From positions 1,736,001 through 1,800,000 of the forward strand of contig NZ_QYUN01000002.1 of NCBI RefSeq assembly GCF_003590875.1: a stretch of 64,000 nucleotides of DNA. The letters are read 5' to 3'. Numbering within the stretch: the first letter of the stretch is position 1; each line of letters starts with the position of its first letter. A program made the translations under genes and the position numbers. This document shows positions 11,152-63,171 of the stretch, piece after piece. Under the pieces are notes generated by a model. It made no database searches. It was not told the DNA's origin and worked only from the letters and a program-made list of their open reading frames with translations. This DNA comes from Noviherbaspirillum cavernae (lineage in GTDB: Bacteria; Pseudomonadota; Gammaproteobacteria; Burkholderiales; Burkholderiaceae_D).

Positions 11152-11622
11152 CTATCCCGGTAGGCCTATGCTTCGCCAGGTGATAATGCCGCAGGCGAGA
11201 TGAAGGAACGCGAGATGGTTCTTCGCCTTCTTGGCCCAACGAATCAGCAAGCCACGAAACCGGTTCAGCCAGCTATGCGTACGCTCCACCACCCAGCGGC
11301 GGGCTCTCGTTCCCGTCTGCCGCTGCTGCGCTTCCTCCCCGCGTGACCGGATGTGCGCCCGGTAGCCCAATTCAAGCGCCAACTGCTGGATCTGCGGATA
11401 GTCATAGCCCTTGTCCAGGCACAGTCCTTGTGGCCACACCGCAAGCAATGACGGTCGCCCCACTTCCAGCGACTCCAGTGTCGGTCGCGCCAGCTTCATG
11501 TCATGGCGGTTCGCACCATCAATGACGATGGCCAGGGGAATGCCGTGTGCGTCCGTCAGCAGGCTGCGCTTGACGCCGCCTTTGCCGCGATCCGTTGGAT
11601 TGGGGCCGATTTTTTTCCCCAC
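11152..11622 (-). CDS. IS5-family transposase, C-terminal catalytic frame (OrfB)
   Basis: A 156-aa frame starting with GKKIGPNPTDRGKGGVKRSL and containing the second Asp (LDKGYD) and the catalytic Glu region (RRWVVERTHSWLNRFR) of the DDE transposase core. It overlaps OrfA by 104 bp and lies one base forward of it at the poly-A tract near 11611-11617. The frame opens with GTG, but production as a fusion with OrfA through frameshifting is the likely route. The stop lies within the left inverted repeat. Confidence 0.88.
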   Translation of the reverse strand: MGKKIGPNPTDRGKGGVKRSLLTDAHGIPLAIVIDGANRHDMKLARPTLESLEVGRPSLLAVWPQGLCLDKGYDYPQIQQLALELGYRAHIRSRGEEAQQRQTGTRARRWVVERTHSWLNRFRGLLIRWAKKAKNHLAFLHLACGIITWRSIGLPG

Positions 11623-11977: not shown

Positions 11978-12768
11978 GTCGAACCTCCTTCGCCAACATG
12001 CGCTTGGACCACCATTTACCTCGCAATTTCCCTTGCCGACGGCCTACCGGGATAGGCTCTTAATACTCGGTCGCGTTCTACCTTTTTGCCGAAATTGTTC
12101 CGTTTCAGAAAAGAAGTGGGGTCATGCGGAAGTATTTCTCGCGTGATCCCATAACCGAACATCTGGCGCAGGTCGCCAAGTAGATTGCGTGCAATGATAG
12201 GCGCGCCGCGTTCAACAGCTCCGTCCAAAATACCCGTAATCATTGCGCGGGTTACGTCTTCGGCAGCAACATCACCGATCTTGGGGAAAACATCCTTTTC
12301 AAAACTGCGGTGCACTTCAGCACCGCCATCCTTGCGCCGACCTAATTCACGGCGCTTCCATTGATCGAACAAGGTTTTTACCGTCAGTCGGGCGGCCGCC
12401 TTTGCTTGCTCCTGCCGTGCGGCTTTTTCTGCGGCCTGCTTGGCTACTTCCTGTTGCGCTTTTTGTTGGACAGGATCAATGCCTTGCTTGCGCATAAGCT
12501 TCATGTTCAATGCCGATGCGCGGGCATGGGAAAGCGATATCCTGGGGTAGGGGCCGATATCGACCCAGTTGGCCTTATTGCCTACCTTATAGCGATACAG
12601 CCATGTCTTTGCGTTCGTATTCATGAACACACGCAGAGGCCTCCGCCATCATTTAAAAATGCATCCTTGCGGTCCATCGCCTTGGCATGTTTGACATCGT
12701 AGTCAGTCAGGATTGCCATGAAACCTCCCATGTAAGTGGCATCGCCGTTCCCGCTGTTTCGGCTTAGT

Positions 12769-12821
12769 CCGTGACACTTTCCGTGACACCTTTATGCACG
12801 CAACAATCTGGAATCTGTTGC
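12769..12821. repeat. Direct and inverted repeats between integrase and attachment site
   Basis: TCCGTGACAC occurs twice in tandem (12768-12777 and 12780-12789) with a 12-bp period. Just beyond, GCAACA (12800-12805) and TGTTGC (12816-12821) form an inverted repeat. These lie upstream of the integrase start and inside the element end. They are candidate arm-type integrase or excisionase sites, or an operator for the integrase promoter. Confidence 0.4.
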
Positions 12822-12832
12822 AACCTTCTGGG

Positions 12833-12838
12833 ATTATA
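12833..12838 (-). promoter_or_regulatory. Candidate integrase -10 box
   Basis: On the minus strand TATAAT occurs at 12838-12833 in a strongly A+T-rich stretch about 115 bp upstream of the integrase ATG. A good -35 box is not obvious. This is the only consensus -10 hexamer noted in the gap between the gene and the tRNA fragment. Confidence 0.35.
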
Positions 12839-12930
12839 TAATATTTAAGCTATTGAATATAAAGAGAAAAAATTCTAATTTTGTCTAAGAATACTTTAGC
12901 GTTTTTTGCGAAATAGTGCTTTTTACCTAA

Positions 12931-12975
12931 CTACGAACCAAGGGGTCGTGGGTTCGATTCCTGCCAGCCGCACCA
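12931..12975 (+). other. attR: 45-bp 3' segment of tRNA-Arg(ACG)
   Basis: The segment begins in the anticodon loop (CTACGAACC, anticodon ACG), continues through the variable loop, the T arm (GTGGG-TTCGATT-CCTGC, which pairs) and the 3' acceptor strand CAGCCGC-A-CCA. No 5' half (expected to begin GCGGCTG) precedes it; the sequence to the left is A+T-rich element DNA. It is therefore not a functional tRNA gene but the duplicated 3' end left at the island boundary. The identity call as Arg(ACG) comes from the anticodon and the stem sequences. Confidence 0.82.
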
Positions 12976-12982
12976 AATATGA

Positions 12983-13013
12983 GGGGTTAGATCGCAAGAT
13001 CTAACCCCTTTTT
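12983..13013 (+). terminator. Rho-independent terminator after the tRNA 3' segment
   Basis: A perfect 11-bp stem, GGGGTTAGATC (12983-12993) and GATCTAACCCC (12998-13008), with loop GCAA, is followed by TTTTT. It was probably the terminator of the tRNA-Arg gene, now separated from the intact gene by the island. Confidence 0.92.
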
Positions 13014-13244
13014 GGTTTATGGCCTGCGCATAGCTGCAAGTTCGTTTGCGCACAGGCACTTCATTTTTCTTCCTTTTCAGTCACGGCCTTCAGGCCAGTC
13101 ATTCGCCCGTTGCCTGTGGGCGCATCGTCTCGGATTTTGAGTTTCAGACTCTGCTACGCATGTCCGGAGCAGGTCAGGGTGTTTGCATGAGAACGGCGCA
13201 GGAGGCGATGCGATGCTTCGCAGTCGGATAAATGGAACGTCCGA

Positions 13245-13907
13245 TCAGAGCACTTCGATATCGACGCAGAAGCTGTAGCCTTGGCCGTGTTCGGTGCGGA
13301 GGGGGAGCTTTTCCCCGGTGCGGTTTTGCCAGCGGCGACGCAGCCTGCTGACCAGTTGGTCGAGATGGCGGTCGTCGTAATCCAGCCAATCGGTGCCGAA
13401 TGCCCTGGCAATGTCGGGTCTGGATACCACTTTGCCTGCATTGCGCGCCAGCAGTTCCAGCAGTGTCATTTCCAGGGCGCTCATGGTTTCCTCATGGCCG
13501 CCCGGTGCGCACAGGCTGCGTTCAAGCATGTTGAGGCGCCATGTGTCGCTGACGATGCGCCGTGCGATGGCTGACACGTACGCCGACAGTTCGTTGAGCC
13601 GGATCGGCTTGATCAGATAGTGATCGGCACCTTTCCTGAGTCCATTGATCTTGTCGTTGATGCTGCCGCGTGCGGTGAGCATGATCGCGCCGATGTGTGG
13701 ATGTGTTTTGCTCAGGCTTTCCGCGACTGCGAAGCCGTCGCCGTCGGGCAGGCCGACATCGATGATGGCGATTTCGGCGTGGTCGATCAAGGGAGTGAAT
13801 TCCGCAACGCTGCCTGCTTCCTGCACTTGATGCCCTTCGCTGCGAAGAAAATCCGCAACCTCTTCGCGAAGAGCCACTTCATCTTCCAGCAGCAATACCT
13901 TGGCCAT
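13245..13907 (-). CDS. OmpR-family response regulator
   Basis: A 220-aa two-component regulator. The receiver (residues 1-115) has the acidic pair Glu8/Asp9, phospho-acceptor Asp50 (IIDVGLPDGDG), Thr78 and Lys100 (LIKPIRL). The C-terminal half (about 125-218) is a winged helix with LEMTLLELLARNAGKVVSR and a recognition segment DDRHLDQLVSRLRRR. It is divergent from the giant surface-protein gene, whose operon leads to a sensor kinase at 26350-28410, the natural partner. Three CTGAC-type repeats at 13961-13990 lie just upstream of its own promoter, consistent with autoregulation. It is first of a candidate regulon that also includes pgaABCD. Confidence 0.9.
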   Translation of the reverse strand: MAKVLLLEDEVALREEVADFLRSEGHQVQEAGSVAEFTPLIDHAEIAIIDVGLPDGDGFAVAESLSKTHPHIGAIMLTARGSINDKINGLRKGADHYLIKPIRLNELSAYVSAIARRIVSDTWRLNMLERSLCAPGGHEETMSALEMTLLELLARNAGKVVSRPDIARAFGTDWLDYDDRHLDQLVSRLRRRWQNRTGEKLPLRTEHGQGYSFCVDIEVL

Positions 13908-13940
13908 ATCGATTTGATTTCAATAATTTCCTGCGGGAAA

Positions 13941-13990
13941 ATTGTAGCACCTGTTTCATATCTGGCAGAACTGTCAGAAGTTGTCAGGAA
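13941..13990 (-). promoter_or_regulatory. Tandem CTGAC repeats and -10 box upstream of the regulator gene
   Basis: Read on the minus strand, CTGACA, CTGACA and CTGCCA follow one another at 10- and 9-bp steps (13990 down to 13961), each after a TT/TC pair. TACAAT, close to a consensus -10, follows at 13946-13941, placed so that the repeats cover the -35 region. Direct repeats at one helical turn are the usual site form for OmpR/PhoB-type regulators. The same array occurs at 56636-56664 before pgaABCD. Binding is inferred. Confidence 0.55.
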
Positions 13991-14125
13991 TGGCTCGGAT
14001 ATTTCCTACAAAATGCGACCGCTTGTAAAAAGTGCATTCAAGCAAGAACGGCCGCCATGCTCTGATTGATTCTCTCCATAGGACGGGATCGGCGGTCGAT
14101 TTGTTAAAAATCCATCCATTCCGCC

Positions 14126-17100
14126 ATGCGTCGCTTCTCTCTCTTGCGCCGGATTTTTCGCGTCGCTTCTGATCGTCGGTCTTTCCGTTCCCTGCTGCTC
14201 GTTTTTGCTGCAATGGCTTGTTCCGGCCAGGCGCTCGCCGCGCTCGATGTGTCGATGAGTGTCACGCCGGGCTACGCGAATCCGATCTATCCCGGCGACA
14301 TCACTTCGTTTCGGATCAGCCTGAGCAATAGCAACGCGGTATCGGCGGTCACCGGCGTCGGCTTCACCAACTCCATGCCGGCACAGATCACGGTTGCCGG
14401 TGTTGGTGTCAAGTCTTATTCCTGCGTGGACGGCGACGGGACGAGCGCTGCAACGAGCGGCACTGTGACTGCCAGCGGCAGCACGATCAGTCTGTCCGGT
14501 GGTTCGGTGCCGAAAGCGAAGGCGGGCGGGGCCAGCGGCAAGTGCGATATCGACGTCGAAGTGACGTCGCTGGTGCGCAACAACGCTTTCATCAATACGA
14601 TAGCGGCGGGCGCCGTCACAGGTACCGACAACACCGGTGCGGTCGCCAACGGCACGCAGGCGCAGCAATCTATCAACGTCAATAATTTCGCGCTGCCCAC
14701 CATCAGCAAGAGTTTTTCCTCCTCCATCATCGTCAAGGGCGACGAGACGGTTCGCCTGAGCATGGTGATCAGCAACGCCAGCGGCGCGACCACGCTGCCG
14801 CTGAACGGCGCAAGCGATTCTCCGGCATTTGCGTTGCGCGACACATTGCCGGCAGGTTTGCAGGTGGCGACGACGCCGAATGCGACGGCAACGTGTAGCG
14901 GGGCGGGCGTTGCTCCCGCATTTTCTCCTGCGGCGGGAAATACGGTTCTCACCGCAGTCGGCGGAACTGTGGCGGCAGGCGGCACTTGCACGCTGGCGGT
15001 CGATCTGGTGGGCACGACCACCGGTGGCGCTTACAACAAGGATGTCGTCAACACGATCAGCCGCACCGCCGATTTCGGCAACAAGCGCGGCCTGGTGCCG
15101 GCCAGCGATGCGACTGCCAGCCTGTCGATCCATTCCCTGCTGCGGGTTGCGAAGCAATTCACTCTCGGCACGATCAGTGCGGGACAGCAGTCGACGCTGG
15201 TGATCACGCTGAACAACGATAGCCCGGTCAGCCCGATCACGCTGACTACCTTTGCCGATAGTCCGATCGACGGCATCGGCAATCCGTCATACGGTCTGAA
15301 GGTGTCGGGCACACCGACCACCACCTGCGGCGGCACGGCCACTGCGACAGGCGGCAATATCGGCATCACGATGACAGGCGGTGCCATTCCGGCCAAGGGC
15401 AGTTGCACCATCACCGTTCCCTATAAAGGTACCCTGCAGGCCGCCGGCACGCCGCAAGCCTTCACCAACACGATTGCCGAAGGCGCGGTCGGCACGTCCG
15501 ATCCCGACATCGTCAGCAAGTCCGCGACCCATAGCGTCACGGTGGTGGATCAACTGCTGATCAACAAGAGCTCGAATCCGGCGAAGATCGCTGCCGGCAA
15601 TCCGATCCAGTACACGATCACGATCAACAATTATTCGTCTTCACCATTGAGCAATGTGGTGTTGACCGATCCCTTGCCCTCAGGTGTGCTGGCGCTCCCC
15701 GCCATGCCGGCAGCACCGTCCTTGTCGGGCACCGGATGTTCGGGCTTGTCGCACAACATCCCGTCTTTGCCGGCATCGATGGCGACACCGCGATTCACGA
15801 TCGGCACGGTGCCCGCCGGCACAGGCGCTGCGCCGGGCGCCTGTTCCGTGACGTTCTGGGCCATGGCGCCCAAGAGTTCGGGCGTCAGCACCGTTTTGAC
15901 GAACACCATCCCCGCCGGCAATGTCGGGGTGGGCGGAATCTACAACACGAACGTCTCCAGCGCGGCTGCGACTGTCGATTCCACCATCACGATCAGCAAG
16001 GTATTCAATCCGAGCAGCACGTCGGAAGGGACCGTGTCGCTGCTGACGCTGACGCTGACCAACATCTCGTCCCAGGCGGTAACGAATGCCGGCTTCACCG
16101 ACAATCTGCCACTCGGCTCGACCGGCCTGCAACTGGTCGTCGCCAATCCGGCCAGCGCCTCGACGACATGCGGCGGCGCGCTCACCGCTGTCCCGGGCAG
16201 CAACAGCATTTCGCTGAGCGGCGCGAACATACCGGCGCGCGCCAACAACGGCACCGGTGCGTTCGGCACCTGCCAGGTGCAGGTCAAGGTGATCGGCCCC
16301 GCGGGCACGTACGTCAACACGCTGCCGGCGGGCGCGCTGACCGGAACGCAGCTGTATGCCGACGGTACCACCGACACCATCAGCAGTCCCGGTCCGGTGT
16401 CGGCCAGCCTGACCTATACCTCTGCATTGGCGGCATCGAAAGTCTTCTCGCCGGCCACGGTCAGTTCCGGCGGCAAGGCGACGGTGCGCATCAATCTGAC
16501 GAACAAGGACACCGGTACGCTGAATAACGTCAGCGTCATCGACCCGCTGCCCGCCGGCATGACGATCGCGTCGCCATCGAATGCCTACAGCACCTGCGGC
16601 GGCAGTCCGGTGATTACCGCAACGCCAGGCGCGGCCTCGGCATCGGTGAGCGGTGTCGTGCTGCCGCCGAACGGCAAGTGCGATTTCTTGTTTGATGTTA
16701 TCGCCACTGGTGCGTCGAACTGGGTCAATACCATCCCGGTTGGCAATGTGACGGCAACGGGCGGAGTGCAGAACGTGTTGCCGGTGACGGCCACCCTGCA
16801 AAACAGCACTGCCGGGGCGGTGATTGTCACCAACAACACCAATCCCAACAGCTTGTCGGCACCGGGCGCATCGAGCGTGCTGACCGTAAACATCAGCAAT
16901 ACCGGATCGGTGGCGCTGAGCGGCCTCGGCCTGGTCAACCACTTCACCGTCAATGGCTTGGCCAACGGCACGCCGACCGGCATGCGCGTCGCTTCCACGG
17001 CGAACCTCGGCACGACCTGCCCGGGCGGCATCGTCAGCACCAGCGCCGACGGCACCAGCGTGACGCTGTCGAATGCGACGCTGGCAGCAGGTGCTTCGTG

Positions 17101-20100
17101 CACGATCACGGCCAATGTCACGCTGAACACGACCGGCACGGTGCAGGACACGATTCCGGTCGGCGCGATCACCAGCAGCCAGGGCATCAGCAATACCTTG
17201 CTGACCGTGACCAGTTTGTCCGCAGGGGCGAACATTGGCGTCATCAAGCAATTCACACCGGCGGTCATCAAGCCGGGCGATCGTTCCCGGCTGCGCCTGA
17301 CATTCATCAATCCGGTCACGCTTGCGCTGAACGATTTGACTGCGGTCGACAACCTGCCGGCCGGCCTCGTCGTTCCCGCGGGAGCGAACCCGATGACGAC
17401 CTGTTCTGGCGCGACTGTTTCGGCGCCGACTGCAAACCAGGTAAAGGTCACGGGCGGATCGCTGCCTGCGGCAACTACCGGCACATCCACGACCTGTTAC
17501 GCGGAAATCGACGTGCAGGCCGCGAGCGTCGGTTCCTACACGAACATCATCGTGGTCGGTGATGTCACCGGCACGATCGGAGGCGGCTCGGCCAGCAATC
17601 CGTCGCCGGGCACATCCACTCTGGAAGTACGCAATCCGGTCACCATCGGCAAGGCGATCGCGCCTGCGTCGGTCACGCCGGGCACGCCCGCGACTGTCAC
17701 CCTCACGCTGACCAACAGCAACGCTATCGCGCTGACCAATGCGGTGCTGACCGACAATCTGCCGGCCAACGTGGTTGTCGCACAGGCTCCGAATGCATCG
17801 ACCACTTGCGCAGGTGGCGTGATATCCGCACCGATCTCGGCGACCTCGGTCGCCCTGACCGGCGCGACATTGCCGGCCAACGGTTCCTGCACGGTGAAGT
17901 TCGACGTCGTCAGCAATATCGCCGGCGTGTACGTCAACACCATCCCGGCCGGCAACCTGGTCACGGCGCAAGGCGTCACGAATGAAACGCCGGCCAGCGC
18001 GACACTGAGCCTGCTCGATCCACCGACCGTCAACAAGCAGTTCAGCCCGATTGCGATTTCCGCAAACGGAAAATCGACGCTCACCATCGTGCTGGGCAAT
18101 ACCAACAGCACGGACGCGACCCTGAGCGCGGCGCTGGTCGATACCTTGCCGACTTTGCCGGGCAATATCGTCGTCGCCACGCCCAACAACCTGAGCGGCA
18201 CCTGCACGCTGGCTAGCGTCAGCGCACCGGCCGGCGGCGCGACGGTGACTTACGCGAGCGGGGCGAAGATTCCTGCTGGCGGCTGCACGATCAGTGTCGA
18301 TGTCACCGGCACGGTCGAAGGCACGTACAACAACTTCATTCCTGCTGGCGCGCTGGTCACGAACATTGGCAAAAATGTGCAGCCTGCCAGCGCCAATCTG
18401 GAAATCAGCCCGCTCGGCTTCGTTTCCGGCAAGGTGTTCAAGGACAACAACGTGGTGCCGAACGGGACGTTCGAGCTCGGCACCGATGTCGCCATCGCGA
18501 ATGTGGCGCTCACGCTGACCGGCACCAGCTACGGCCCTGATGGCGTCGCCGGCGGTGGCGACGATACGGCGGTGAGCCTGAACACGGTCACCGACGCATT
18601 GGGCAACTATGCATTCACCGGCCTCAATCCCGGCAGCTATTCGGTAACGGAAACGGTACAGCCGGCCGGCACGATGAACGGCATCACGACTGCCGGCACG
18701 ATCGCAGGCGCGGGCGGCGGCATTGCCGGCACTGCGACCGGCATCGCCGTCACGCCGAGCCGCATCTCGAATATCGTCCTGAACAAGGATGGCAGCGGCA
18801 AGGTCTCCGTATCGGCGAACAACAATTTTGCCGAAGTGGTGCCGTCGTCCATTGGCGGCAAGGTCTTTCTCGATCAGAACAACAACGGCGTGCAGGATCT
18901 CGCCGATACGGCGCTGCCCGGTGTGACGGTCGAGCTGCTGAACGCATCGTCCGTCGTGGTTGCGACGACGGTGACGGACGCCAACGGCGCATACAGCTTC
19001 AACAATCTCGTGCCCGGCAAGTACTCGGTGCGCGAGCCGACCCAACCGGAGAATACCGTCAACGGCAAGACCGTTGCCGGCACGGTCGGCAATGGCGGCA
19101 CCGCAGGCACGCCGACGGCGAACACCGTGCTGCCGAGCGTGATTGCCAATATCACGCTGCCGCCGGGAACCGCAACCACTGGCAATAATTTCGCGGAAGC
19201 GCCAAGTGGACGCCAGATTTCCGGCCGCGTGTTCACCGACCCGAACAATGACGGCGTGTTCAACGCGGGCGATATCGGCCTCGCGGGCGTGACCATCAAT
19301 CTGAGCGGAACCGACGTCAATGGCACGGCGGTCACGCGGACCACGACTACCGGCCCCGACGGACGCTACACCTTCATCGGCCTGGCGGAAGGGACGTATA
19401 CCGTCACCGAACCAACGCAGCCGCTGCGCACCGACAACGGCATTACTACTGCCGGTTCGACCGGTGGCACGGCAACCGTCGTGGCGGTGAAGCCGTCCGC
19501 GATTTCGGCGATCAATCTGACCGGCACCAATTCGATTTCGGTCGATAACAATTTCGCCGAAATTCCGATTCTGGTCGGCGTTGTGTCGGGCAAGGTGTAT
19601 GCCGATGCCAACGACAATGGCGTGGCTGAAGCGGGTGAGAAGGGCATTGGTGGCGTCAAGCTGAGCCTGACCGGCACCGATGTCAACGGCAGTACCGTGA
19701 ACCTGAGCACGACCACGGCGGCCGACGGCAGTTACAGCTTCAACAACCTGCCGCCGAGCAATGCCGCCGGTTACACGATTACAGAGCTTCAGCCGGCGCT
19801 GTACAAGGATGGCAAGACCACCGTCGCTGCCGGCAATCCCGGCACGGCGGCATCCAGCAAGCCGGTTCTGTCGAACAACAGCGATGTCATCCGCAATGTG
19901 AGCGTGATCGCGGGCGATGTCCTGACCGGCTACAACTTCGGCGAGATCGGCGGATTGTCGCTGAAGCCGCCGATCGTCAATGGTTACGTGTATCTGGATC
20001 GCGACCATACCCGCGTGCGTCCGACCGATGGCAGCGCCGCAGGTCTGGAAGGATGGACCGCGCAACTGACGCAGAACGGCACGGCGGTCTGCACCACCAC

Positions 20101-21778
20101 GACCGATGTCAATGGCTTCTACCAGTTCGACAACCTGCATTGCCCCGGCTATGAGGCTTCCGGGCTGCCGGTCGGCACCGGTTTTGAAATCGGCTTCAAC
20201 AAGGATGGCAACAAGTATCCGGCATTGCCGACCTCGGGCGACAATCGCGGTTCAACGACAGCAGCCGGCGGTAGTGTCATTACCAATATCACGCTGCTGG
20301 CGAGCGACGAAGTCGTCGAACAGAATCTGCCGCTCGATCCGTCCGGCGTCGTGTACGACTCCGTTACGCGCAATCCGATTGCCGGCGCGGTCGTCCGTAT
20401 CGATGGTCCGGCGGGCTTCAATCCGACGACGCATCTGGTCGGCGGCAACGCGGCGCAATCGCAGACGGTCGGCAGCGATGGTTACTACCAGTACCTGCTG
20501 CAAAACGGCTTCCCGAGCGGCACCTACACCTTGTCGGTCACTGCGCCGGGCGGCTATCTGCCGGCGCCATCGAGCAACCTGCCCGCATGTAACGGCGCGG
20601 CGGTGGTAGGGGCCTTGCCGAATCCGGCGCTGGTCCAGGCCAGCGATACCGCGCCGGGATTGTCGGTGACGCAGCAAACCGATCCGAGCGCCTGCGTCGG
20701 CATGGTGCCGGGTGGCGCGACGACGACGCAGTACTACTTCAGCTTCGTGATCACGAACGGTGTATCCGCGCCGATTCTGAACAACCACATCCCGCTCGAT
20801 CCGGTGCAAGTCGGTTCGATCCTGGTCACCAAGACCACGCCGCTGGTGAATGTGGCGCGCGGCGATCTGGTGCCGTACACGATCACGGCATCGAATACGC
20901 TGACGACGCCGATTCCCGGCGTGAACGTGGTCGATCAGATTCCGCCCGGCTTCAAGTATCGCCTGGGCAGCGCAACGCTCAACGGCGTGGCGGTGGAGCC
21001 GGTCGTCAAGGGGCGCGTGCTGACCTGGCCGAACCAGAGGTTCGTGGCGAAAGAGAAGAAGACGTATCGCCTGATCCTGACGGTGGGCGCGGGCGTCGGC
21101 GACGGCAACTATGTCAACCAGGCATGGGCCGCCAACAACGCGACCAATCTGATGCTGTCGAACCTCGCGACCGCCACCGTGCGCATCGTGCCCGATCCGA
21201 CCTTCGATTGCCCGGACATCATCGGCAAGGTCTTCGACGACCGCAATGCCAACGGCTATCAGGATCAGGACGAACCGGGCATTCCTGCGGTGCGTGTCGT
21301 CACGCCGCGCGGCTTGCTGGTCAATTCCGATAGCGAAGGCCGCTTTCACGTGCCGTGCGCGGATATCCCGAACGCGGATCGCGGTTCCAACTTCGTGATG
21401 AAGCTGGACGAACGTTCGCTGCCGAGCGGTTATCGCGTCACGACCGAAAACCCGCGCGATGTCCGCATCACCCGCGGCAAGGTGGTCAAGCTGAACTTCG
21501 GCGCCACCATCCATCGCGTGATTCGCATTGAACTCAGCGATGCGGCCTTCGTCTCCGGCGAGGTGAGCTTGCTGCCGCAATGGCAGAAGCAGTTCGACGC
21601 CGTGCCGTCGCAGTTGAAGCAGAGGCCGTCCGTGGTGCGACTTGCCTATCAGCCCGGCAAGGATGACGCCGCGCTGGTGCAGAAACGTGTGGATGCAATC
21701 CGAATGCAGATACGGGAACGCTGGAAAGCGCAGAAAGGGGAGTACACGCTCAACATCGAAACCGAGGACGCACAATGA
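14126..21778 (+). CDS. Giant secreted DUF11/SdrD-B-like repeat protein (2550 aa)
   Basis: A signal peptide (basic start, hydrophobic core, ALA cleavage near residue 38) leads into about ten DUF11-like Ig-fold repeats (residues ~39-1425), each starting like I-K-F-P---G. Most carry two cysteines, one in a TTC block and one in GSC/GTC. Then come SdrD-B-like repeats (~1430-1980) with DxNNNGxxD calcium-type loops (VFLDQNNNGVQD, VFTDPNNDGVFN, VYADANDNGV), a CarboxypepD-like unit (~2071), another DUF11 unit (~2230) and a last SdrD-B unit (~2361, IIGKVFDDRNANGYQDQDE). No LPXTG, passenger barrel or RTX signal is seen. Its stop overlaps the next start by 4 bp, so it is coupled to the OmpA/barrel gene. 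A surface or matrix structural role is inferred. Confidence 0.88.
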   Translation: MRRFSLLRRIFRVASDRRSFRSLLLVFAAMACSGQALAALDVSMSVTPGYANPIYPGDITSFRISLSNSNAVSAVTGVGFTNSMPAQITVAGVGVKSYSCVDGDGTSAATSGTVTASGSTISLSGGSVPKAKAGGASGKCDIDVEVTSLVRNNAFINTIAAGAVTGTDNTGAVANGTQAQQSINVNNFALPTISKSFSSSIIVKGDETVRLSMVISNASGATTLPLNGASDSPAFALRDTLPAGLQVATTPNATATCSGAGVAPAFSPAAGNTVLTAVGGTVAAGGTCTLAVDLVGTTTGGAYNKDVVNTISRTADFGNKRGLVPASDATASLSIHSLLRVAKQFTLGTISAGQQSTLVITLNNDSPVSPITLTTFADSPIDGIGNPSYGLKVSGTPTTTCGGTATATGGNIGITMTGGAIPAKGSCTITVPYKGTLQAAGTPQAFTNTIAEGAVGTSDPDIVSKSATHSVTVVDQLLINKSSNPAKIAAGNPIQYTITINNYSSSPLSNVVLTDPLPSGVLALPAMPAAPSLSGTGCSGLSHNIPSLPASMATPRFTIGTVPAGTGAAPGACSVTFWAMAPKSSGVSTVLTNTIPAGNVGVGGIYNTNVSSAAATVDSTITISKVFNPSSTSEGTVSLLTLTLTNISSQAVTNAGFTDNLPLGSTGLQLVVANPASASTTCGGALTAVPGSNSISLSGANIPARANNGTGAFGTCQVQVKVIGPAGTYVNTLPAGALTGTQLYADGTTDTISSPGPVSASLTYTSALAASKVFSPATVSSGGKATVRINLTNKDTGTLNNVSVIDPLPAGMTIASPSNAYSTCGGSPVITATPGAASASVSGVVLPPNGKCDFLFDVIATGASNWVNTIPVGNVTATGGVQNVLPVTATLQNSTAGAVIVTNNTNPNSLSAPGASSVLTVNISNTGSVALSGLGLVNHFTVNGLANGTPTGMRVASTANLGTTCPGGIVSTSADGTSVTLSNATLAAGASCTITANVTLNTTGTVQDTIPVGAITSSQGISNTLLTVTSLSAGANIGVIKQFTPAVIKPGDRSRLRLTFINPVTLALNDLTAVDNLPAGLVVPAGANPMTTCSGATVSAPTANQVKVTGGSLPAATTGTSTTCYAEIDVQAASVGSYTNIIVVGDVTGTIGGGSASNPSPGTSTLEVRNPVTIGKAIAPASVTPGTPATVTLTLTNSNAIALTNAVLTDNLPANVVVAQAPNASTTCAGGVISAPISATSVALTGATLPANGSCTVKFDVVSNIAGVYVNTIPAGNLVTAQGVTNETPASATLSLLDPPTVNKQFSPIAISANGKSTLTIVLGNTNSTDATLSAALVDTLPTLPGNIVVATPNNLSGTCTLASVSAPAGGATVTYASGAKIPAGGCTISVDVTGTVEGTYNNFIPAGALVTNIGKNVQPASANLEISPLGFVSGKVFKDNNVVPNGTFELGTDVAIANVALTLTGTSYGPDGVAGGGDDTAVSLNTVTDALGNYAFTGLNPGSYSVTETVQPAGTMNGITTAGTIAGAGGGIAGTATGIAVTPSRISNIVLNKDGSGKVSVSANNNFAEVVPSSIGGKVFLDQNNNGVQDLADTALPGVTVELLNASSVVVATTVTDANGAYSFNNLVPGKYSVREPTQPENTVNGKTVAGTVGNGGTAGTPTANTVLPSVIANITLPPGTATTGNNFAEAPSGRQISGRVFTDPNNDGVFNAGDIGLAGVTINLSGTDVNGTAVTRTTTTGPDGRYTFIGLAEGTYTVTEPTQPLRTDNGITTAGSTGGTATVVAVKPSAISAINLTGTNSISVDNNFAEIPILVGVVSGKVYADANDNGVAEAGEKGIGGVKLSLTGTDVNGSTVNLSTTTAADGSYSFNNLPPSNAAGYTITELQPALYKDGKTTVAAGNPGTAASSKPVLSNNSDVIRNVSVIAGDVLTGYNFGEIGGLSLKPPIVNGYVYLDRDHTRVRPTDGSAAGLEGWTAQLTQNGTAVCTTTTDVNGFYQFDNLHCPGYEASGLPVGTGFEIGFNKDGNKYPALPTSGDNRGSTTAAGGSVITNITLLASDEVVEQNLPLDPSGVVYDSVTRNPIAGAVVRIDGPAGFNPTTHLVGGNAAQSQTVGSDGYYQYLLQNGFPSGTYTLSVTAPGGYLPAPSSNLPACNGAAVVGALPNPALVQASDTAPGLSVTQQTDPSACVGMVPGGATTTQYYFSFVITNGVSAPILNNHIPLDPVQVGSILVTKTTPLVNVARGDLVPYTITASNTLTTPIPGVNVVDQIPPGFKYRLGSATLNGVAVEPVVKGRVLTWPNQRFVAKEKKTYRLILTVGAGVGDGNYVNQAWAANNATNLMLSNLATATVRIVPDPTFDCPDIIGKVFDDRNANGYQDQDEPGIPAVRVVTPRGLLVNSDSEGRFHVPCADIPNADRGSNFVMKLDERSLPSGYRVTTENPRDVRITRGKVVKLNFGATIHRVIRIELSDAAFVSGEVSLLPQWQKQFDAVPSQLKQRPSVVRLAYQPGKDDAALVQKRVDAIRMQIRERWKAQKGEYTLNIETEDAQ

Positions 21779-23379
21779 ACGCAACACGTCATATGAATAT
21801 CCGTGCGCGGATTCGTGGGAATTTCCAGGCCAAGAGATTGGCAGTTCTGCTGAGTGCAGTGGGAATGACATGCCTGCCCCTCAGGGCGCAGGAAACCGGT
21901 AACACGCATGAGGATGCCGTCAACCTGCGCGGCAAGATGGTGGACCGCAGCCGCGTCGATGACGCGCATGTGTCGCCGAACAGCGAAAGGCAAGCGACCG
22001 AGTTTGCCAAGCTGACGCCGTCGGCGTTGACGCTCGCCGAACGCAAGACCATGCTGGAAGCGGTCGCGCCGGAAGGTGCCGCGCAACGCAGCGTCGTCAT
22101 CGAGGATGAAATCAAGGGCAGTCATTTCGAGTCGGGCAAGGCAGTGCTGCTGCCGCGCACGATGGAAGTGCTGAACGGCTTGCTGAACAATCTGAAGGGC
22201 AAGCGCGATATCCGCATCCAGATCGTCGGTCATACCGACAGCCAGCGCATCGCGGCGAGCTTGCGTCCTGTCTATCCTGACAATCAGGCCTTGTCCGAGG
22301 CACGGGCACTGGCGGTCGCGGCGTTTCTGAAGCAGGGCTTGCAGATTCCGGCGGACGCCTTTTCCGTGAGCGGCAAGGGCGAGACGCAGCCGGTAGCCAG
22401 CAACGCGAATCCGGAGGGAATGGCAAAGAACCGGCGCGTCGAAATCCGTGTCTGGTTCAGCGAGGCGCCGGCCCAAGTCACGGTCACACGAGAAAAAGTC
22501 ATCGACAACAATGCCTGCGTGACGAACCCGTCGGCAGCCGAGTTGCCGTTCTCCATCAGCATCGACGGCCAGCCGGTGCAACTCGATGCCAAGGCGCAGG
22601 AAGCCGACTTCCAGCGTTGCGTCGATGTCGCGCTGGAAAAGGCCGACATCCAGATCAAGTTCGATCCGTTGAATGTATCGCCGGCGTTGAACGTGTGGGT
22701 GGTGCCGAGCACCGCCGTGCGCGGCAAGCAAACCTATTTCGGTACTTATACCAATTACGCCTGGTGGCTGCGTCGCGCCGAGCTGCGCGTCTTTGCCAAG
22801 GGACAGAATGCACAGGAAACACCGTTCGCCGTCGTGCCGCTCGCGCCGGGCGCAGCGCTGCAATGGCAGGTGCCGGACGATGCGCCGACCGAACTGGTTT
22901 ACCTGTTGCGTGTCTATGACGCCGATGGCCGTTTCGACGAGACGTTGCAGAAGCCGATGCGCTTGCTGGAACGCGCCGATGTACTGGTCGATGCGCAACG
23001 CGTGCAACGCGAAAAATTGTCCGGTTGGGGCGAATCCAGTCTGCACCTGAGGAACATTCCGGCACGCGGCGGTTCGGTCAGCATCAGCGGCGAAAAGATT
23101 CAACCGGGCCAGACCGTGACGGCGATGGGCATTGCAGTGCCGGTCGATGACAAGGGCAAGTTTGCCTTGCGCCAGATTCTTCCGCCGGGGCCGCATCAAG
23201 TGGATGTCGCGGTCAAGGATGCCAACGGCAAGGGCGCGAGCTTCCGCCGCAATCTGTCGATTGCCGATCAGGACTGGTTCTACGTCGCCGTCGCCGATCT
23301 GACGGTTGGCCGCGACAGCACGACCGGGCCGGCCCAACTGGTGACCAACGATACGCAGCACTACGACAACAAGACCTAG
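21775..23379 (+). CDS. OmpA-domain protein, N-terminal part of an amber-interrupted gene
   Basis: The product has a signal peptide (cleavage near Ala38), an OmpA C-terminal-type peptidoglycan-binding domain at about residues 105-225 (FESGKAVLLPRTMEVLN, VGHTDSQ, LSEARALAVAAFL, NRRVEIRVW), then periplasmic Ig-like units (to ~530). It ends at TAG 23377-23379 (codon 535). The same frame continues without a break to 26262 as a long outer-membrane barrel, so this is very probably the first third of a 1495-codon gene. The cause may be a real nonsense mutation, suppression, or a sequence error. It overlaps the giant repeat gene by 4 bp (ATGA). Confidence 0.85.
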   Translation: MNATRHMNIRARIRGNFQAKRLAVLLSAVGMTCLPLRAQETGNTHEDAVNLRGKMVDRSRVDDAHVSPNSERQATEFAKLTPSALTLAERKTMLEAVAPEGAAQRSVVIEDEIKGSHFESGKAVLLPRTMEVLNGLLNNLKGKRDIRIQIVGHTDSQRIAASLRPVYPDNQALSEARALAVAAFLKQGLQIPADAFSVSGKGETQPVASNANPEGMAKNRRVEIRVWFSEAPAQVTVTREKVIDNNACVTNPSAAELPFSISIDGQPVQLDAKAQEADFQRCVDVALEKADIQIKFDPLNVSPALNVWVVPSTAVRGKQTYFGTYTNYAWWLRRAELRVFAKGQNAQETPFAVVPLAPGAALQWQVPDDAPTELVYLLRVYDADGRFDETLQKPMRLLERADVLVDAQRVQREKLSGWGESSLHLRNIPARGGSVSISGEKIQPGQTVTAMGIAVPVDDKGKFALRQILPPGPHQVDVAVKDANGKGASFRRNLSIADQDWFYVAVADLTVGRDSTTGPAQLVTNDTQHYDNKT

Positions 23380-23475: not shown

Positions 23476-26262
23476 TTGTTCAGCAACTTCAGCAGCAAGG
23501 ACCCGAACTATCTGCTGCGGCGCATTGACCCGGACCGCTATTACCCCGTGTATGGCGACGACAGCACCATCGTCGATGACGCGCCGACGCAGGGCAAGTT
23601 CTACGTCAAGCTGGAAAAAGATAATTCCTACGTCATGTGGGGGAATTTCCAGACCGCATGGACCGGCACCGAACTGACGCAATACAGTCGCGGCCTGTAT
23701 GGTGCCAACGTGCTGTGGAATGGCAAGGACGCGACGCGCTACGGCGAGAAGAGCAGCACCGTCAATGTGTTCGCGGCAGATCCGGGCACCTTGCAGTCGC
23801 GCGAGGAATTCCGCGGCACCGGCGGTTCGCTGTATTACCTGCATCACATGGACGTGACGGAAGGCTCCGAGCGCCTGTGGGTGGAAATCCGCGACAAGGA
23901 TTCCGGCCTGGTGATTCAGCGCACACCGCTGACGCCGGCGCAGGATTACGACATCAATTATCTGCAAGGACGCGTGACCTTGCGCGCGCCGCTGCCTTCG
24001 GTGGCGGACGGCAGCACGCTGGTGCAGACGTCGAGCGCCAACGGCAATCCTGTCTACCTGATCACGACCTATGAATACGTGCCGGGTCTGACCGAAATCA
24101 GCGGGAACGCCATCGGTCTGCGCGCCAGCCACTGGTTCAACGACAACCTGCGTGTCGGCCTGAGCCTGTACCGGCAGGGAGAGAACGGACAGGACCAGAA
24201 CCTGAAGGGCATCGACACCACCTTGCGCTACAAGCCGGGCACCTGGCTGAAAGCGGAAGTGGCGCGCTCCAGTGGCATTGGCACCACGACCTTGACCTCG
24301 CTCACCGGCGGCTACGATTTCACGCAGAGCCTGTTGAGCAACCAGACCGCCAATGCCAAGCGCGTCGATGCGACGGTCGATCTGGCCGATGTCAGCGACA
24401 TGAAGGGCCGCATGTCTGCCTACTGGCAGCAGCGCGACGCAGGATTCTCGGGGCCGGGACTGGCATTGCCGAACGGCGAGGCGATGGAGCAAAAGGGATT
24501 GGCAGCGACTGTTCCGGTCAATGACAAGACCGATGTCACCGCCAAGCTCGATTATCGTGACGCCACCAGCCAGAGTGCGAACGCGGTGGAAGCGGCAGTA
24601 CGCCGCAAGATCGATGCCGAATGGGGTGCATCAGTCGGTGTCCGGCGCGATGACCGTTCCAATGCGAATGTCAATGCGGCGGCCGGCGTGATCACCAATG
24701 CCAGCCCGATCCTGAGTCAGAACGGCACACGCAGCGATGTCATTGTCCGCGTCGATTATCGTCCGCTGGAAGAAGGCGAGGCCGAGAAGCTGGCGGCGAT
24801 GCAAAAGACTGAGGGGGGCGAACCGGCTGCCGCTGCCGCCACCGCTTCGGTTGCAGCCGGCTTGCCAGGTAACGGACAGAACAATCCGACGTCCTCCTTG
24901 CTGCCATCGGCGAACTCGACCGACAGTATCGCGTCGCGCACCGTCAGCGATGCCACCTCGGCCGCTGGCGTCGCGGCGGCGCGCGTGCCCGGTTTGCAAT
25001 ACAAGTCCTGGGACACTTACGGCTTCGTGCAGGCAACCGTCGCGCGCTCCGGCGATCGCGGCGAAAACGACCGCGCCGGGGTCGGCGGAAGCTGGCAAGC
25101 CACCGAGCGCCTGCGTTTCGGCGCGGAAGGATCGGGCGGCAGCGGCGGCGTCGGCGGCCGCTTGAGTGGAAACTATCGGGTGGACGATCGCAGCACGGTC
25201 TATCTGACCTATGCGATGGAAACCGAAAGCCAGGACAGCAACTATGCCGGTCGCCAGGCCACTCTGGCCTCGGGGACGCATTATCGCTACAGCGATCAGA
25301 TCGGCATGTTCGGCGAAACGCGCTGGTCCAACGGCGCCGGGCCCAAGAGCCTGACGCACGCATTCGGCGTCGATCTGGCGCCGGACAAGAACTGGACCTA
25401 TGGCGTGAAGTATGAGACGGGCACCTTGTCCGATCCGGTCTCCGGCGACTTGAAGCGCGATGCGATCGGCCTGACCGCCGCATACCGCGACAAGGATTTC
25501 AAATACACGAGCGCGCTGGAGTTCCGCAATGACCGGACCAGTACGCTGGGCAATGTGGCCGGTACTTGCGTCACTTCGGACATCAACGGCAATTGCGCAG
25601 GTGTCGCCAGCGACAACAATCGCCGCACATGGCTGCTGAAGAATTCCGCGCAATACCAGCTTGACCCCGCATGGCGTTTGCTCGGCAAACTGAATCTTTC
25701 GCGCAGCAGCAACAGCCAGGGGGCGTTCTACGACGGCGACTATACGGAAACCGTGCTCGGCGCGGCCTATCGCCCGGTGAACAACGACCGCTGGAATACG
25801 CTGTTCAAATACACGTATTTCTACAACCTGCCGTCGCCCGGCCAGGTGGACAGCGTCACTGGCGGTGCGCTCGACTTCACGCAGAAGAGCCATGTGTTCA
25901 ATATCGACACGACCTACGATGTCGTGCCGTGGCTGTCGGTGGGCGTCAAGTACGGTCTGCGCATGGGGCAGTTGCGCATGTCCAAGACCGAGGGTGAATG
26001 GTTCTCCAGCCGCGCAGACCTGTGGATCCTGCGCGCCGACCTGCACCTGGTGAAGGAGTGGGATGCCCTGATCGAAGCACGTCGACTGCGTGCGCAGGAA
26101 GCGAGCGATGTGCGTTCCGGCTATCTGGCCGGGATTTACCGGCACGTCAACAAGAACGTTAAAATCGGCGTCGGTTACAACTTCACCGATTTCTCCGACG
26201 ACTTGACAGATTTGTCCTATCGCAGCCGAGGCTGGTTCCTCAATGCGCTGGCGACTTTCTGA
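23476..26262 (+). CDS. Outer-membrane beta-barrel part of the amber-interrupted gene
   Basis: This is in the same frame as the OmpA-domain gene; coding continues straight from 23380 and the TTG at 23476 is only the first possible start after the amber codon. The sequence has alternating strands with aromatic girdles and ends in ...GWFLNALATF, a C-terminal Phe typical of outer-membrane barrels. An early section (LWVEIRDKDSGLVI, then DYDINYLQGRVTL) resembles plug or hairpin modules in very large barrels such as SprA; I am not sure of that. Alone it has no signal peptide, so it would not be exported unless read through from upstream. Probable role: surface display or export of the giant repeat protein. 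Confidence 0.75.
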   Translation: MFSNFSSKDPNYLLRRIDPDRYYPVYGDDSTIVDDAPTQGKFYVKLEKDNSYVMWGNFQTAWTGTELTQYSRGLYGANVLWNGKDATRYGEKSSTVNVFAADPGTLQSREEFRGTGGSLYYLHHMDVTEGSERLWVEIRDKDSGLVIQRTPLTPAQDYDINYLQGRVTLRAPLPSVADGSTLVQTSSANGNPVYLITTYEYVPGLTEISGNAIGLRASHWFNDNLRVGLSLYRQGENGQDQNLKGIDTTLRYKPGTWLKAEVARSSGIGTTTLTSLTGGYDFTQSLLSNQTANAKRVDATVDLADVSDMKGRMSAYWQQRDAGFSGPGLALPNGEAMEQKGLAATVPVNDKTDVTAKLDYRDATSQSANAVEAAVRRKIDAEWGASVGVRRDDRSNANVNAAAGVITNASPILSQNGTRSDVIVRVDYRPLEEGEAEKLAAMQKTEGGEPAAAAATASVAAGLPGNGQNNPTSSLLPSANSTDSIASRTVSDATSAAGVAAARVPGLQYKSWDTYGFVQATVARSGDRGENDRAGVGGSWQATERLRFGAEGSGGSGGVGGRLSGNYRVDDRSTVYLTYAMETESQDSNYAGRQATLASGTHYRYSDQIGMFGETRWSNGAGPKSLTHAFGVDLAPDKNWTYGVKYETGTLSDPVSGDLKRDAIGLTAAYRDKDFKYTSALEFRNDRTSTLGNVAGTCVTSDINGNCAGVASDNNRRTWLLKNSAQYQLDPAWRLLGKLNLSRSSNSQGAFYDGDYTETVLGAAYRPVNNDRWNTLFKYTYFYNLPSPGQVDSVTGGALDFTQKSHVFNIDTTYDVVPWLSVGVKYGLRMGQLRMSKTEGEWFSSRADLWILRADLHLVKEWDALIEARRLRAQEASDVRSGYLAGIYRHVNKNVKIGVGYNFTDFSDDLTDLSYRSRGWFLNALATF

Positions 26263-26349: not shown

Positions 26350-28410
26350 ATGAGCCTTGTTTCCCGTTATCTGTTGATGCTGTTGTTGTTCGTGTGCTGC
26401 GCCTGGGCGAGAGCGGAGCCGCTGGCATTGGATCATGAGAGGGAAGAATTGGCCGGGTACATGTCGGTGTTCATCGACAAGTCGGGCAAGATGGACTTCG
26501 AGGACGTCGCCGCTCCTTACAACAGCGAACGTTTTCGGCCCTTGAAGGGCGAGCTGAATGAAGGTATTACCGATGCCGCCATCTGGCTCAAATTCACCGT
26601 CCAACGGTCATCGCAGTATCCCGCCGAATGGTGGCTGGAAGTTCAGCCGGCACTGATCGAGCAGCTCAATCTGTATGTGCCGAATGCCGACGGCAGCTAC
26701 ACCATGCGACAGGCGGGCACGCACCTTCCATTCGCGAAGCGCGAAGTGGAATACCGGAACCCCGTTTTCAAGCTGCAGTTGCCGACCTCCGTCCCGCAAA
26801 CGTATTACCTTCGGATCAAGACGGTTGCCCGGAGCTCCATGCACCTGACCTTCTGGCAACCGGAGGCATTTCTGTCCAAACTTGGCAGCGAGCAGCTTGT
26901 GTTGGGACTGTTTCTCGGGGTGTACGCCATGCTGGCGCTGGCCAGTTTCTGGTTCGAGCGTGCCTCGCGCGACGGAGTGTATAAATTCCTCGGTTTGTAC
27001 GCACTCGGTTGTCTGTGGATGGTGCTGGCCGAAAGCGGCCTGATGTTTCAGTATTTGTTTCCCGGACATCCGCAATGGGCTCAACCGACATGGACTTTGT
27101 CGTTTCTTGTCGGCGGGCCGATGGCTATCGAATTTCTGTTCCGGTTCGTCGACATGCCGGAACGTTATCCTCGGCTGACCCGCTACTATTTGTGGGCAAT
27201 CCGGATCTACGTGCTCGGGCTGATAAGCATGATCGGATTGGGCTTCCATGCCGAGGCGGCGGCCCAACGATGGATAGTGGGTGCAACGGTGATCGCGCCG
27301 CTGACCTTTGCGATCCTGTTCGTGCCGATTCTGAAAAGCCGCAATGAGATACGTTACGCACTTTTCGCGAGTAGCGCCGCGCTTTTCGCCGAGGTCGCGA
27401 TTCGCGCCCTGTTGGAGATCGGTCATGTCGAGCGCAACATTCTCACCGAGAATGTCGGTTTTCTGGGCTCCATGACGTTCTGCCTGATCAGCTATTACGC
27501 GACCAGTCGCCGTTACTACACGATACGGCAAGCCAAGGAGCGGGCGCAAAGCGATTTGCTGGAGATGGCGCAGCGCACCGAGCAGGAGCTGGAACAGCAG
27601 GTGAGGGCAAGGACGGACGATCTGCTGGAGGCCATGAAAACAGTGGAGACGGCATTGTCGCGGGAACGCGCTGCGCATGAGGAGCAGCGCCAGTTCATCT
27701 CTACCGTGTCGCACGAGTTGCGCACGCCGCTGGCGGTGATTGATGCGACCACGCAGAACCTGACCCGCGATGCGCTGCAGGAAAACGGTCCGGCGAGGAT
27801 GCTCGGCCGGCTGGAGAAAATCCAGCAGGCGACCGAGCGCCTATCCTCCTTGTTCGACAATTATCTCAGCAGCAATCGTCTGGACATCATGTCGCAGGGT
27901 GTCCATCCGCGGCAAACGCCCTTGCTTCCCTTGCTGGAGGATGCGATTCGCTCCGCACGTCCGCTGGCGAACAGACATCTATTCCTGCTCAAGAAAAAGC
28001 ATTTGCCCGAAACAATCCATGCCGATCCGGATTTGATGCGCCTGGTCTTGCGCACGCTTGCCGACAACGCGGTCAAATATACGCCCGCAGGCTCGCTGAT
28101 CACGCTTGAGGCGAAGACGACGGAAGACGGATGGGAGATCGAGGTAAGGGATAACGGTCCTGGCATTGCGCCACAGGAGCGCGGCATGATTTTCGATCGC
28201 TATTTTCGCGGCCGCGCATCGTCGGGCCATACAGGTACGGGCCTTGGATTGCCGCTTGCAAGACGATTGATACGAATGCATGGCGGCTCGCTGACGCTGG
28301 TCGATACCAATGGGGCGGGGGCCGTCTTCAGAATCTGGCTGCCTCGGAATCCTGCCATGGCTGCCGAACCGGCAGGCAGTGGCAATGGTCTTGTCGAAGC
28401 GGGAAGCTGA
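26350..28410 (+). CDS. 7TMR-DISM sensor histidine kinase
   Basis: The 686-aa product has a signal peptide, a periplasmic 7TMR-DISM extracellular domain (residues ~25-175), seven membrane segments (~180-380), a coiled coil (~395-440), a HisKA domain with phospho-accepting His455 (VSHELRTPLAVID), and an HATPase domain with N box (LADNAVKYTP), G1 (DNGPGIAP) and G2 (GTGLGLPLARRLI). 7TMR-DISM kinases sense external ligands, often carbohydrates. It lies after the giant-protein/OmpA genes, and the nearest unpaired OmpR-type regulator is at 13245, across the same locus. The pair probably tunes surface-protein and matrix production. Confidence 0.9.
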   Translation: MSLVSRYLLMLLLFVCCAWARAEPLALDHEREELAGYMSVFIDKSGKMDFEDVAAPYNSERFRPLKGELNEGITDAAIWLKFTVQRSSQYPAEWWLEVQPALIEQLNLYVPNADGSYTMRQAGTHLPFAKREVEYRNPVFKLQLPTSVPQTYYLRIKTVARSSMHLTFWQPEAFLSKLGSEQLVLGLFLGVYAMLALASFWFERASRDGVYKFLGLYALGCLWMVLAESGLMFQYLFPGHPQWAQPTWTLSFLVGGPMAIEFLFRFVDMPERYPRLTRYYLWAIRIYVLGLISMIGLGFHAEAAAQRWIVGATVIAPLTFAILFVPILKSRNEIRYALFASSAALFAEVAIRALLEIGHVERNILTENVGFLGSMTFCLISYYATSRRYYTIRQAKERAQSDLLEMAQRTEQELEQQVRARTDDLLEAMKTVETALSRERAAHEEQRQFISTVSHELRTPLAVIDATTQNLTRDALQENGPARMLGRLEKIQQATERLSSLFDNYLSSNRLDIMSQGVHPRQTPLLPLLEDAIRSARPLANRHLFLLKKKHLPETIHADPDLMRLVLRTLADNAVKYTPAGSLITLEAKTTEDGWEIEVRDNGPGIAPQERGMIFDRYFRGRASSGHTGTGLGLPLARRLIRMHGGSLTLVDTNGAGAVFRIWLPRNPAMAAEPAGSGNGLVEAGS

Positions 28411-56635: not shown

Positions 56636-56698
56636 AATCTGAGCGTTTCTGACATTTTCTGACCGTGCGTTGCCACGCGTTAATCCTGTCGCTAAGAT
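56636..56698 (+). promoter_or_regulatory. Tandem CTGA repeats and -10 box upstream of pgaABCD
   Basis: Three 10-bp units stand in tandem: AATCTGAGCG (56636), TTTCTGACAT (56646), TTTCTGACCG (56656). TAAGAT (56693-56698) is a fair -10 hexamer beyond them, about 100 bp before pgaA. The array has the same core and period as the one at 13961-13990 before the response regulator gene. It is the likely activator site for pga transcription. Confidence 0.55.
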
Positions 56699-61339: not shown

Positions 61340-61341
61340 AG

Positions 61342-62706: not shown

Positions 62707-62730
62707 GAAGAACATGATTGAGTGCAAAAC

Positions 62731-63171
62731 ATGTCATTGATTATTGATCAGCCATCGCTGACATCGATCCCGAAACGCATAGGGTGGGGCGGCGTCACCT
62801 TCCTGTTCTGGACGGTGTGGATCTATCTTTGGATGCCGTTTATCACGCTCGCCGCATGGATGTTCGGCTATTACCAGGCCTACAGTCAGTTTCGGTGGGA
62901 GCAGGAGGTGGAGGAACTGAAACGGCTGGTCATCCTGTACACCACCATCGTGGCATGGCTCGGCGGCTCATTGCTGTTATGGGCGCGGGTGGAATACATG
63001 CGATTCCGCAATGTGCATCGCCGCGCCTGGCCTGTCCCTGCGACGACGGAGGATCTTGCCCGGTACGCGGAATTGCCGGCTGCGGAGGTCAACGCATGGC
63101 AGCATGCGCGATGCGTCATCGCTCGTCACGATGAGCACGGCAAGCTGGTCGGCGCGGACGTCAGGGAGTGA
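62731..63171 (+). CDS. pgaD: Poly-beta-1,6-N-acetylglucosamine biosynthesis protein PgaD
   Basis: A 146-aa inner-membrane protein with two membrane segments (~15-45 and 70-90) and a polar C-terminal part. It partners PgaC and forms part of the c-di-GMP-sensing interface. I chose ATG 62731 over a GTG at 62722. Its 3' end overlaps the convergent hpnE gene by 11 bp. Assignment rests on size, topology and position after pgaC. Confidence 0.85.
   Translation: MSLIIDQPSLTSIPKRIGWGGVTFLFWTVWIYLWMPFITLAAWMFGYYQAYSQFRWEQEVEELKRLVILYTTIVAWLGGSLLLWARVEYMRFRNVHRRAWPVPATTEDLARYAELPAAEVNAWQHARCVIARHDEHGKLVGADVRE

Follow-up and report, generated by a model that had tools for sequence, protein, structure and literature searches.

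We put at roughly 0.7 the probability that a tandem CTGAC array in the window (the whole 64,000-nt stretch of Noviherbaspirillum cavernae DNA analysed here) is the address of a two-component system formed by the histidine kinase encoded at 26350–28410 and the response regulator encoded at 13245–13907, with pgaABCD and mgtC in the same regulon. For an uncharacterised giant surface-protein cluster that occurs in several genomes of this bacterial family, this would supply a regulator together with its probable kinase, and a promoter code spelled out well enough to be tested directly. The most detailed version of this reading, which we consider evenly balanced, is that one array is used in two directions, with a set distance of 21 nt to the −10 on one side and of 19 or 29 nt on the other, that its code was extended in this lineage to pgaABCD and mgtC, and that the giant, probably isopeptide-locked protein, PNAG and MgtC form one programme under a 7TMR-DISM kinase.

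The divergent locus and its genes

The array occupies the intergenic region between the OmpR-type regulator gene on the minus strand and the divergent gene of a 2550-aa surface protein on the plus strand. Read directly on the minus strand, it spans 13964–13987 and consists of CTGAC (13987–13983), CTGAC (13977–13973) and CTGCC (13968–13964), at steps of 10 and 9 bp, followed by a −10-like TACAAT (13941–13946, from the spacing count and a consensus scan), as the sequence-only reading had described it. This hexamer lies 17 nt past the degenerate third unit and 26 nt past the last exact CTGAC. The consensus scan gives the promoter as CTGCCA-16-TACAAT with TG ahead of the second hexamer, the third unit serving also as a weak −35 ahead of an extended −10. 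On the plus strand, the same array reads GGCAG–GTCAG–GTCAG and faces the giant gene, whose −10-like CAAAAT (14009–14014) lies 21 nt past the last GTCAG. The earlier statement that the units are read in the regulator’s direction is therefore only half right: in the GTCAG reading the array points at the giant gene, and it is on this side that the spacing is kept more strictly.

The 220-aa regulator (13245–13907, minus strand) comprises a receiver (Pfam Response_reg) and a winged-helix Trans_reg_C domain, scoring 67.5 and 49.9 bits, respectively, both over the Pfam cut-offs; it falls short of the PhoB equivalog cut-off (98.2 versus 296.2 bits). Domain searches identified DUF7933 and SdrD_B stretches in the giant protein (14126–21778, plus strand). 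Its main repeat is DUF7933, which appears in the published excerpts of PMC12617251 among intramolecular isopeptide-bond domains. Downstream on the same strand follow a 534-aa OmpA-domain protein (21775–23379), a 928-aa protein (23476–26262) that is negative in Pfam and NCBIfam and kept in the cluster in relatives, and the 7TMR-DISM histidine kinase (26350–28410). The kinase carries DISMED2, 7TM, HisKA and HATPase domains (PF07696, PF07695, PF00512 and PF02518), and no receiver domain was detected on it at E up to 0.001.

Gene order in relatives bears on the pairing of kinase and regulator. In G148, G134 and G116 a kinase homolog lies downstream of the regulator and is co-oriented with it; in G275 the two are divergent. 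Because it adjoins the regulator in these four genomes, the kinase of the window is the likeliest partner of the regulator, and probably its actual one. In G222 and G320 the homolog stands 3′ of the 928-aa gene, in the same order as in the window; it was not seen in the stretches examined of G315, G310, G182, G181 and G191. The regulators of the window and of G222, G275, G315, G310, G320, G182, G248, G304 and G350 have in common a C-terminal-domain segment, LDQ(L/M)(V/I)SRLRRRW, which we take, by analogy with PhoB, to be the recognition helix. The G134 regulator carries the variant LDQI.

Conservation, chance and promoter spacing

Within the window’s own genus the regulator is missing, the best match among 14 genus mates being 38%. 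Among 392 family genomes, orthologs were found in g50 (65–80%, six genomes) and g47 (52–63%, five genomes). CTGAC-type units at 10-bp steps stand at the same place before all six g50 orthologs, in G182 as a pair with one degenerate unit. No tandem array was found before four of the five g47 regulators, and G148 alone has a pair, in the other orientation. An order-wide search of 399 genomes returned three more regulators at 42–51%, with no array before their genes; a scan of named genomes gave one uninformative 29% match, in Herbidospora; and plasmid records gave at least 5000 matches, all below 60% identity among the matches listed. As a side observation, G320 has a second regulator copy (L184 8679–9332), 52% identical to that of the window, beside the ortholog, so the regulator family has probably duplicated locally.

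Orthologs of the giant gene adjoin the regulator in G222, G315, G310 and G320 and are also present in G275, G248 and G304; the relative in G134 is distant (~33% across the aligned part). The array is kept before the giant gene where no regulator is divergently adjacent, clearly in G275, G248 and G134 and in degenerate form in G304.

Motif counts gave a different picture for the bare repeat. CTGACN5CTGAC with up to one mismatch has four matches in the window against 3.44 expected, and its exact form has ten in the whole genome against seven for the reversed-pattern control. Genome-wide counts were similarly close to control for TTCTGACANTTTCTGAC with up to three mismatches (20 versus 15) and for CTGACNNNNYCTGACNA with up to one (30 versus 31). 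The bare two-unit motif was therefore dropped as evidence for a regulon; with the pair at chance genome-wide, other evidence is needed, and conservation carries the case. The ten exact matches fall in nine places, including those at the regulator, pgaA and mgtC. The other six lie in stop-free frames of at least 231 codons, which is not proof of coding, and none of them has a hexamer matching at 4 of 6 positions at 19 or 29 nt. Random scatter, named in advance as the outcome that would speak against the proposal, thus applies to the bare pair and not to promoter-associated arrays: it is as a promoter element that the array exceeds chance, being kept in relatives, lying at a fixed distance from the −10 and having the top matrix scores.

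We derived a three-unit pattern from the regulator promoters, that of the window included; it had 27 matches in 22 chosen genomes against three for the control, overlapping matches being counted. Two fell in this genome, at the regulator and pgaA sites (control, none). In the regulator-bearing g50 genomes the pattern marks almost only the regulator and giant loci. We also trained a unit matrix on eight array stretches (27 units) from other genomes, leaving out G248, G304 and G350. In the scored DNA of this genome (672 kb with overlaps, comprising the window, a 400-kb sample, paralog stretches and motif-count loci), the top score, 29.5, fell at mgtC, followed by 25.6 at the regulator/giant locus and 18.8 at pgaA; the best remaining place scored 17.4. 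Order-4 random sequence, 160 Mb in all, never reached 25.6.

On the giant-gene strand, a NANAAT hexamer lies exactly 21 nt past the last GTCAG in nine of nine promoters (the window, G222, G275, G315, G310, G320, G248, G134 and G304), matching TATAAT at four or five of six positions. This spacing was first spotted by eye in seven promoters; G320 and G304 were counted later and agree. The count omits the G248 FecR slice, which is too short, the G350 giant upstream region, G182, where no giant gene adjoins the regulator in the stretch seen, and G181 and G191, whose giants are 36% identical and in which the matrix scores highest (16.8 and 17.5) ahead of the giant gene. Separately, G315 carries a CTGAC pair at L193 8686–8700, with GTCAG pointing toward the gene and 21 nt before TAAAAT, ahead of a gene for a FecR/LysM protein, with a CHASE2 kinase gene next in line.

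On the regulator strand, a hexamer matching at least four of six positions stands 19 or 29 nt past the last CTGAC in all six relatives, three of which (G315, G310 and G182) have regulator promoters that are close copies of each other. The 29-nt spacing is that of pgaA, mgtC and the G222 and G320 regulator promoters. Positions with such a hexamer make up 3.7% of these upstream regions versus 1.3% of the genome sample, and since the pgaA and mgtC spacings were noticed first, the relatives’ promoters provide an independent test. As a rule for regulator promoters, 19 or 29 nt fails at the window’s own, where the distance is 26 nt (17 nt from the degenerate third unit).

OmpR/PhoB-type regulators recognise direct repeats spaced by about one helical turn; repeats about 10 bp apart are present here and kept in relatives, and binding by the regulator is predicted. 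The earlier proposal of an OmpR/PhoB-type site stands up well for the giant gene and the regulator, for which conservation across genomes, fixed spacing and the common C-terminal segment all argue, and the predicted link from the regulator to the giant protein is strong.

Outside the regulator and giant loci, four CTGAC units occur in G304 (L188 8733–8767) and G350 (L189 379–413), scoring 35.0 and 37.6 with the matrix; a ShlB/FhaC-type transporter gene lies about 250 bp further on, and the G304 array adjoins a frame of more than 2000 codons. By eye, no obvious −10 lies at 19, 21 or 29 nt from these two arrays, which suggest that the same array code serves a two-partner secretion system elsewhere.

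Arrays before pgaABCD and mgtC

The CTGAC-type unit recurs before pgaA, as the sequence-only reading had noted. Read directly on the plus strand at 56639–56663, the array comprises CTGAG (56639), CTGAC (56649) and CTGAC (56659) at steps of 10 and 10 bp, and ends 6 nt upstream of the good −35 of a TTGCCA-17-TAAGAT promoter (56670–56698), whose −10 lies 29 nt past the last CTGAC. The operon downstream (56796–63171, plus strand; genes at 56796–59252, 59237–61339, 61342–62706 and 62722–63171) is complete in its four-gene content, encoding the PgaA barrel, PgaB with deacetylase and GHL13 domains, the PgaC glycosyltransferase and PgaD.

A further array, out of reach of the sequence-only reading, lies outside the window, on contig C3 at 294423–294447; the gene that follows after 59 nt has a Pfam MgtC domain. 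The site (C3:294413–294457; L009 1491–1535) contains three exact CTGAC units flanked by degenerate units on both sides, and no good −35 is visible. It is the highest-scoring array in the scored DNA of this genome; given its score of 29.5 and the failure of random sequence ever to reach 25.6, the predicted site is statistically firm. The resulting candidate link between mgtC and the regulator system is new and strong at the level of sequence.

Neither association recurs in the other genomes examined. The array is absent upstream of pgaA in 16 of 16 other cases (best matrix score 12.1), five of which come from genomes with a regulator homolog of at least 52%; in G275 the regulator is 73% identical, the pgaA gene, which has no array, only 31%. 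Similarly, none of 34 other mgtC loci, including 13 close orthologs in genus mates, has an array. The best of these 34, a look-alike at L215 scoring 14.9, was rejected, its site overlapping the start codon. Both links, to pgaA and to mgtC, therefore belong to this genome in particular, which looks as though it holds a recently assembled regulon, with the address placed before pgaABCD and mgtC genes whose relatives elsewhere lack it.

These absences also fit a narrower and rather unlikely explanation, that the array serves the regulator/giant locus only, the pgaA array being a chance look-alike and the mgtC array either real or belonging to another system. A score of 18.8 is expected by chance 1.75 times per genome on both strands, so that sites as good as that of pgaA are not rare, and the near-confinement of the three-unit pattern to regulator and giant loci in g50 favours the same explanation. 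Against it, the pgaA array is correctly oriented directly ahead of a well-formed promoter, and its 29-nt spacing equals that at mgtC, G222 and G320. In addition, pgaA was not found in any of the 14 genus mates at E up to 1e-40, so a lineage-specific link would be expected to show only here. Array control of pgaABCD, specific to this genome, remains the likely reading, on the basis of matrix score, promoter position and spacing in one genome. The earlier claim that one system controls both the giant protein and PNAG accordingly fares better in its first part than in its second, which depends on this genome.

That a different OmpR-type regulator reads the pgaA and mgtC arrays is improbable. Three further regulators, 36–42% identical to that encoded at 13245–13907, are available in this genome for such a role, but all three lack the C-terminal segment common to the regulators of array-bearing genomes, and the best-matching paralog has no convincing array (L246, best score 8.0).

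Proposed control and known systems

Under the two-component reading, the kinase encoded at 26350–28410 would phosphorylate the regulator encoded at 13245–13907, and phosphorylated monomers would line up head to tail on the 10-bp units, overlapping the −35 or close to it, in a PhoB-like manner. Bound regulator would recruit RNA polymerase at two back-to-back promoters: that of the giant gene, where the array is read as GTCAG with 21 nt to the −10, and the regulator’s own, where it is read as CTGAC and the −10 follows after 26 nt, against 19 or 29 nt in relatives. Before pgaABCD and mgtC the address would act in the orientation that it has toward the regulator gene, at 29 nt from the −10, and the giant protein, the PNAG matrix and an MgtC membrane protein would probably be switched on together by one sensor.

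We infer activation rather than repression. The third unit as a weak −35, the pgaA array upstream of the −35 and mgtC without a −35 suit activation but do not prove it. The opposite possibility for the regulator gene, negative feedback of array-bound regulator on its own promoter with activation of the giant gene only, appears doubtful. The last unit is 17–19 nt from the −10 and covers the −35 in the window, G315, G310, G182 and G275, which favours repression; in G222, pgaA and mgtC, however, 29 nt separate the last exact unit from the −10, which leaves the −35 free, and the lack of a good −35 at mgtC again suits activation.

The E. coli pho box has an 11-bp step. The array analysed here has steps of 10 and 9 bp and so departs from CTGTCAT at 11-bp steps; kinase and targets also differ from those of PhoB, and the array is used in both orientations. 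The likeness lies in an OmpR-family regulator and direct repeats, which PhoB binds head to tail, overlapping the −35, according to excerpts of two reports (PMC3348028, PMC4415409), and in the giant-strand unit TGTCAG, which resembles the E. coli CTGTCAT motif (PMC4415409, excerpts).

The closest published parallel in the excerpts seen, again an OmpR-family two-component system linked to the PNAG operon, is CpxR of Actinobacillus pleuropneumoniae, which raises pgaABCD expression through rpoE and whose site is the direct repeat GTAAA-N4-8-GTAAA (PMC5890194). In contrast to CpxR, the array here lies directly before pgaA and is built of another unit, and the system would also serve a giant surface protein. 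In the open-access literature we found neither a report on this pgaABCD/response-regulator system nor one tying a 7TMR-DISM kinase and response regulator to direct repeats, which does not prove absence in print in either case.

RetS/LadS-type proteins are hybrid kinases with receiver domains. The kinase of the window likewise has a DISMED2 and 7TM sensor region and a kinase core, but it has no receiver, and its partner would be an OmpR-type DNA-binding regulator of the same cluster. In excerpts of PMC7695008, RetS and LadS of Pseudomonas are described as 7TMR-DISMED2 periplasmic sensor kinases that bear on biofilm and work via the Gac/Rsm pathway, LadS binding calcium.

Around the locus, Rfam gave no match at 12500–14500. 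The segment 12950–12975 looks like a tRNA gene's 3′ end, with T arm, acceptor end and CCA, while ARAGORN reported no tRNA in the window; an integration site next to the regulator cluster may have left this remnant. A 156-aa frame with a transposase DDE domain at 11152–11622 is perhaps an insertion-sequence fragment.
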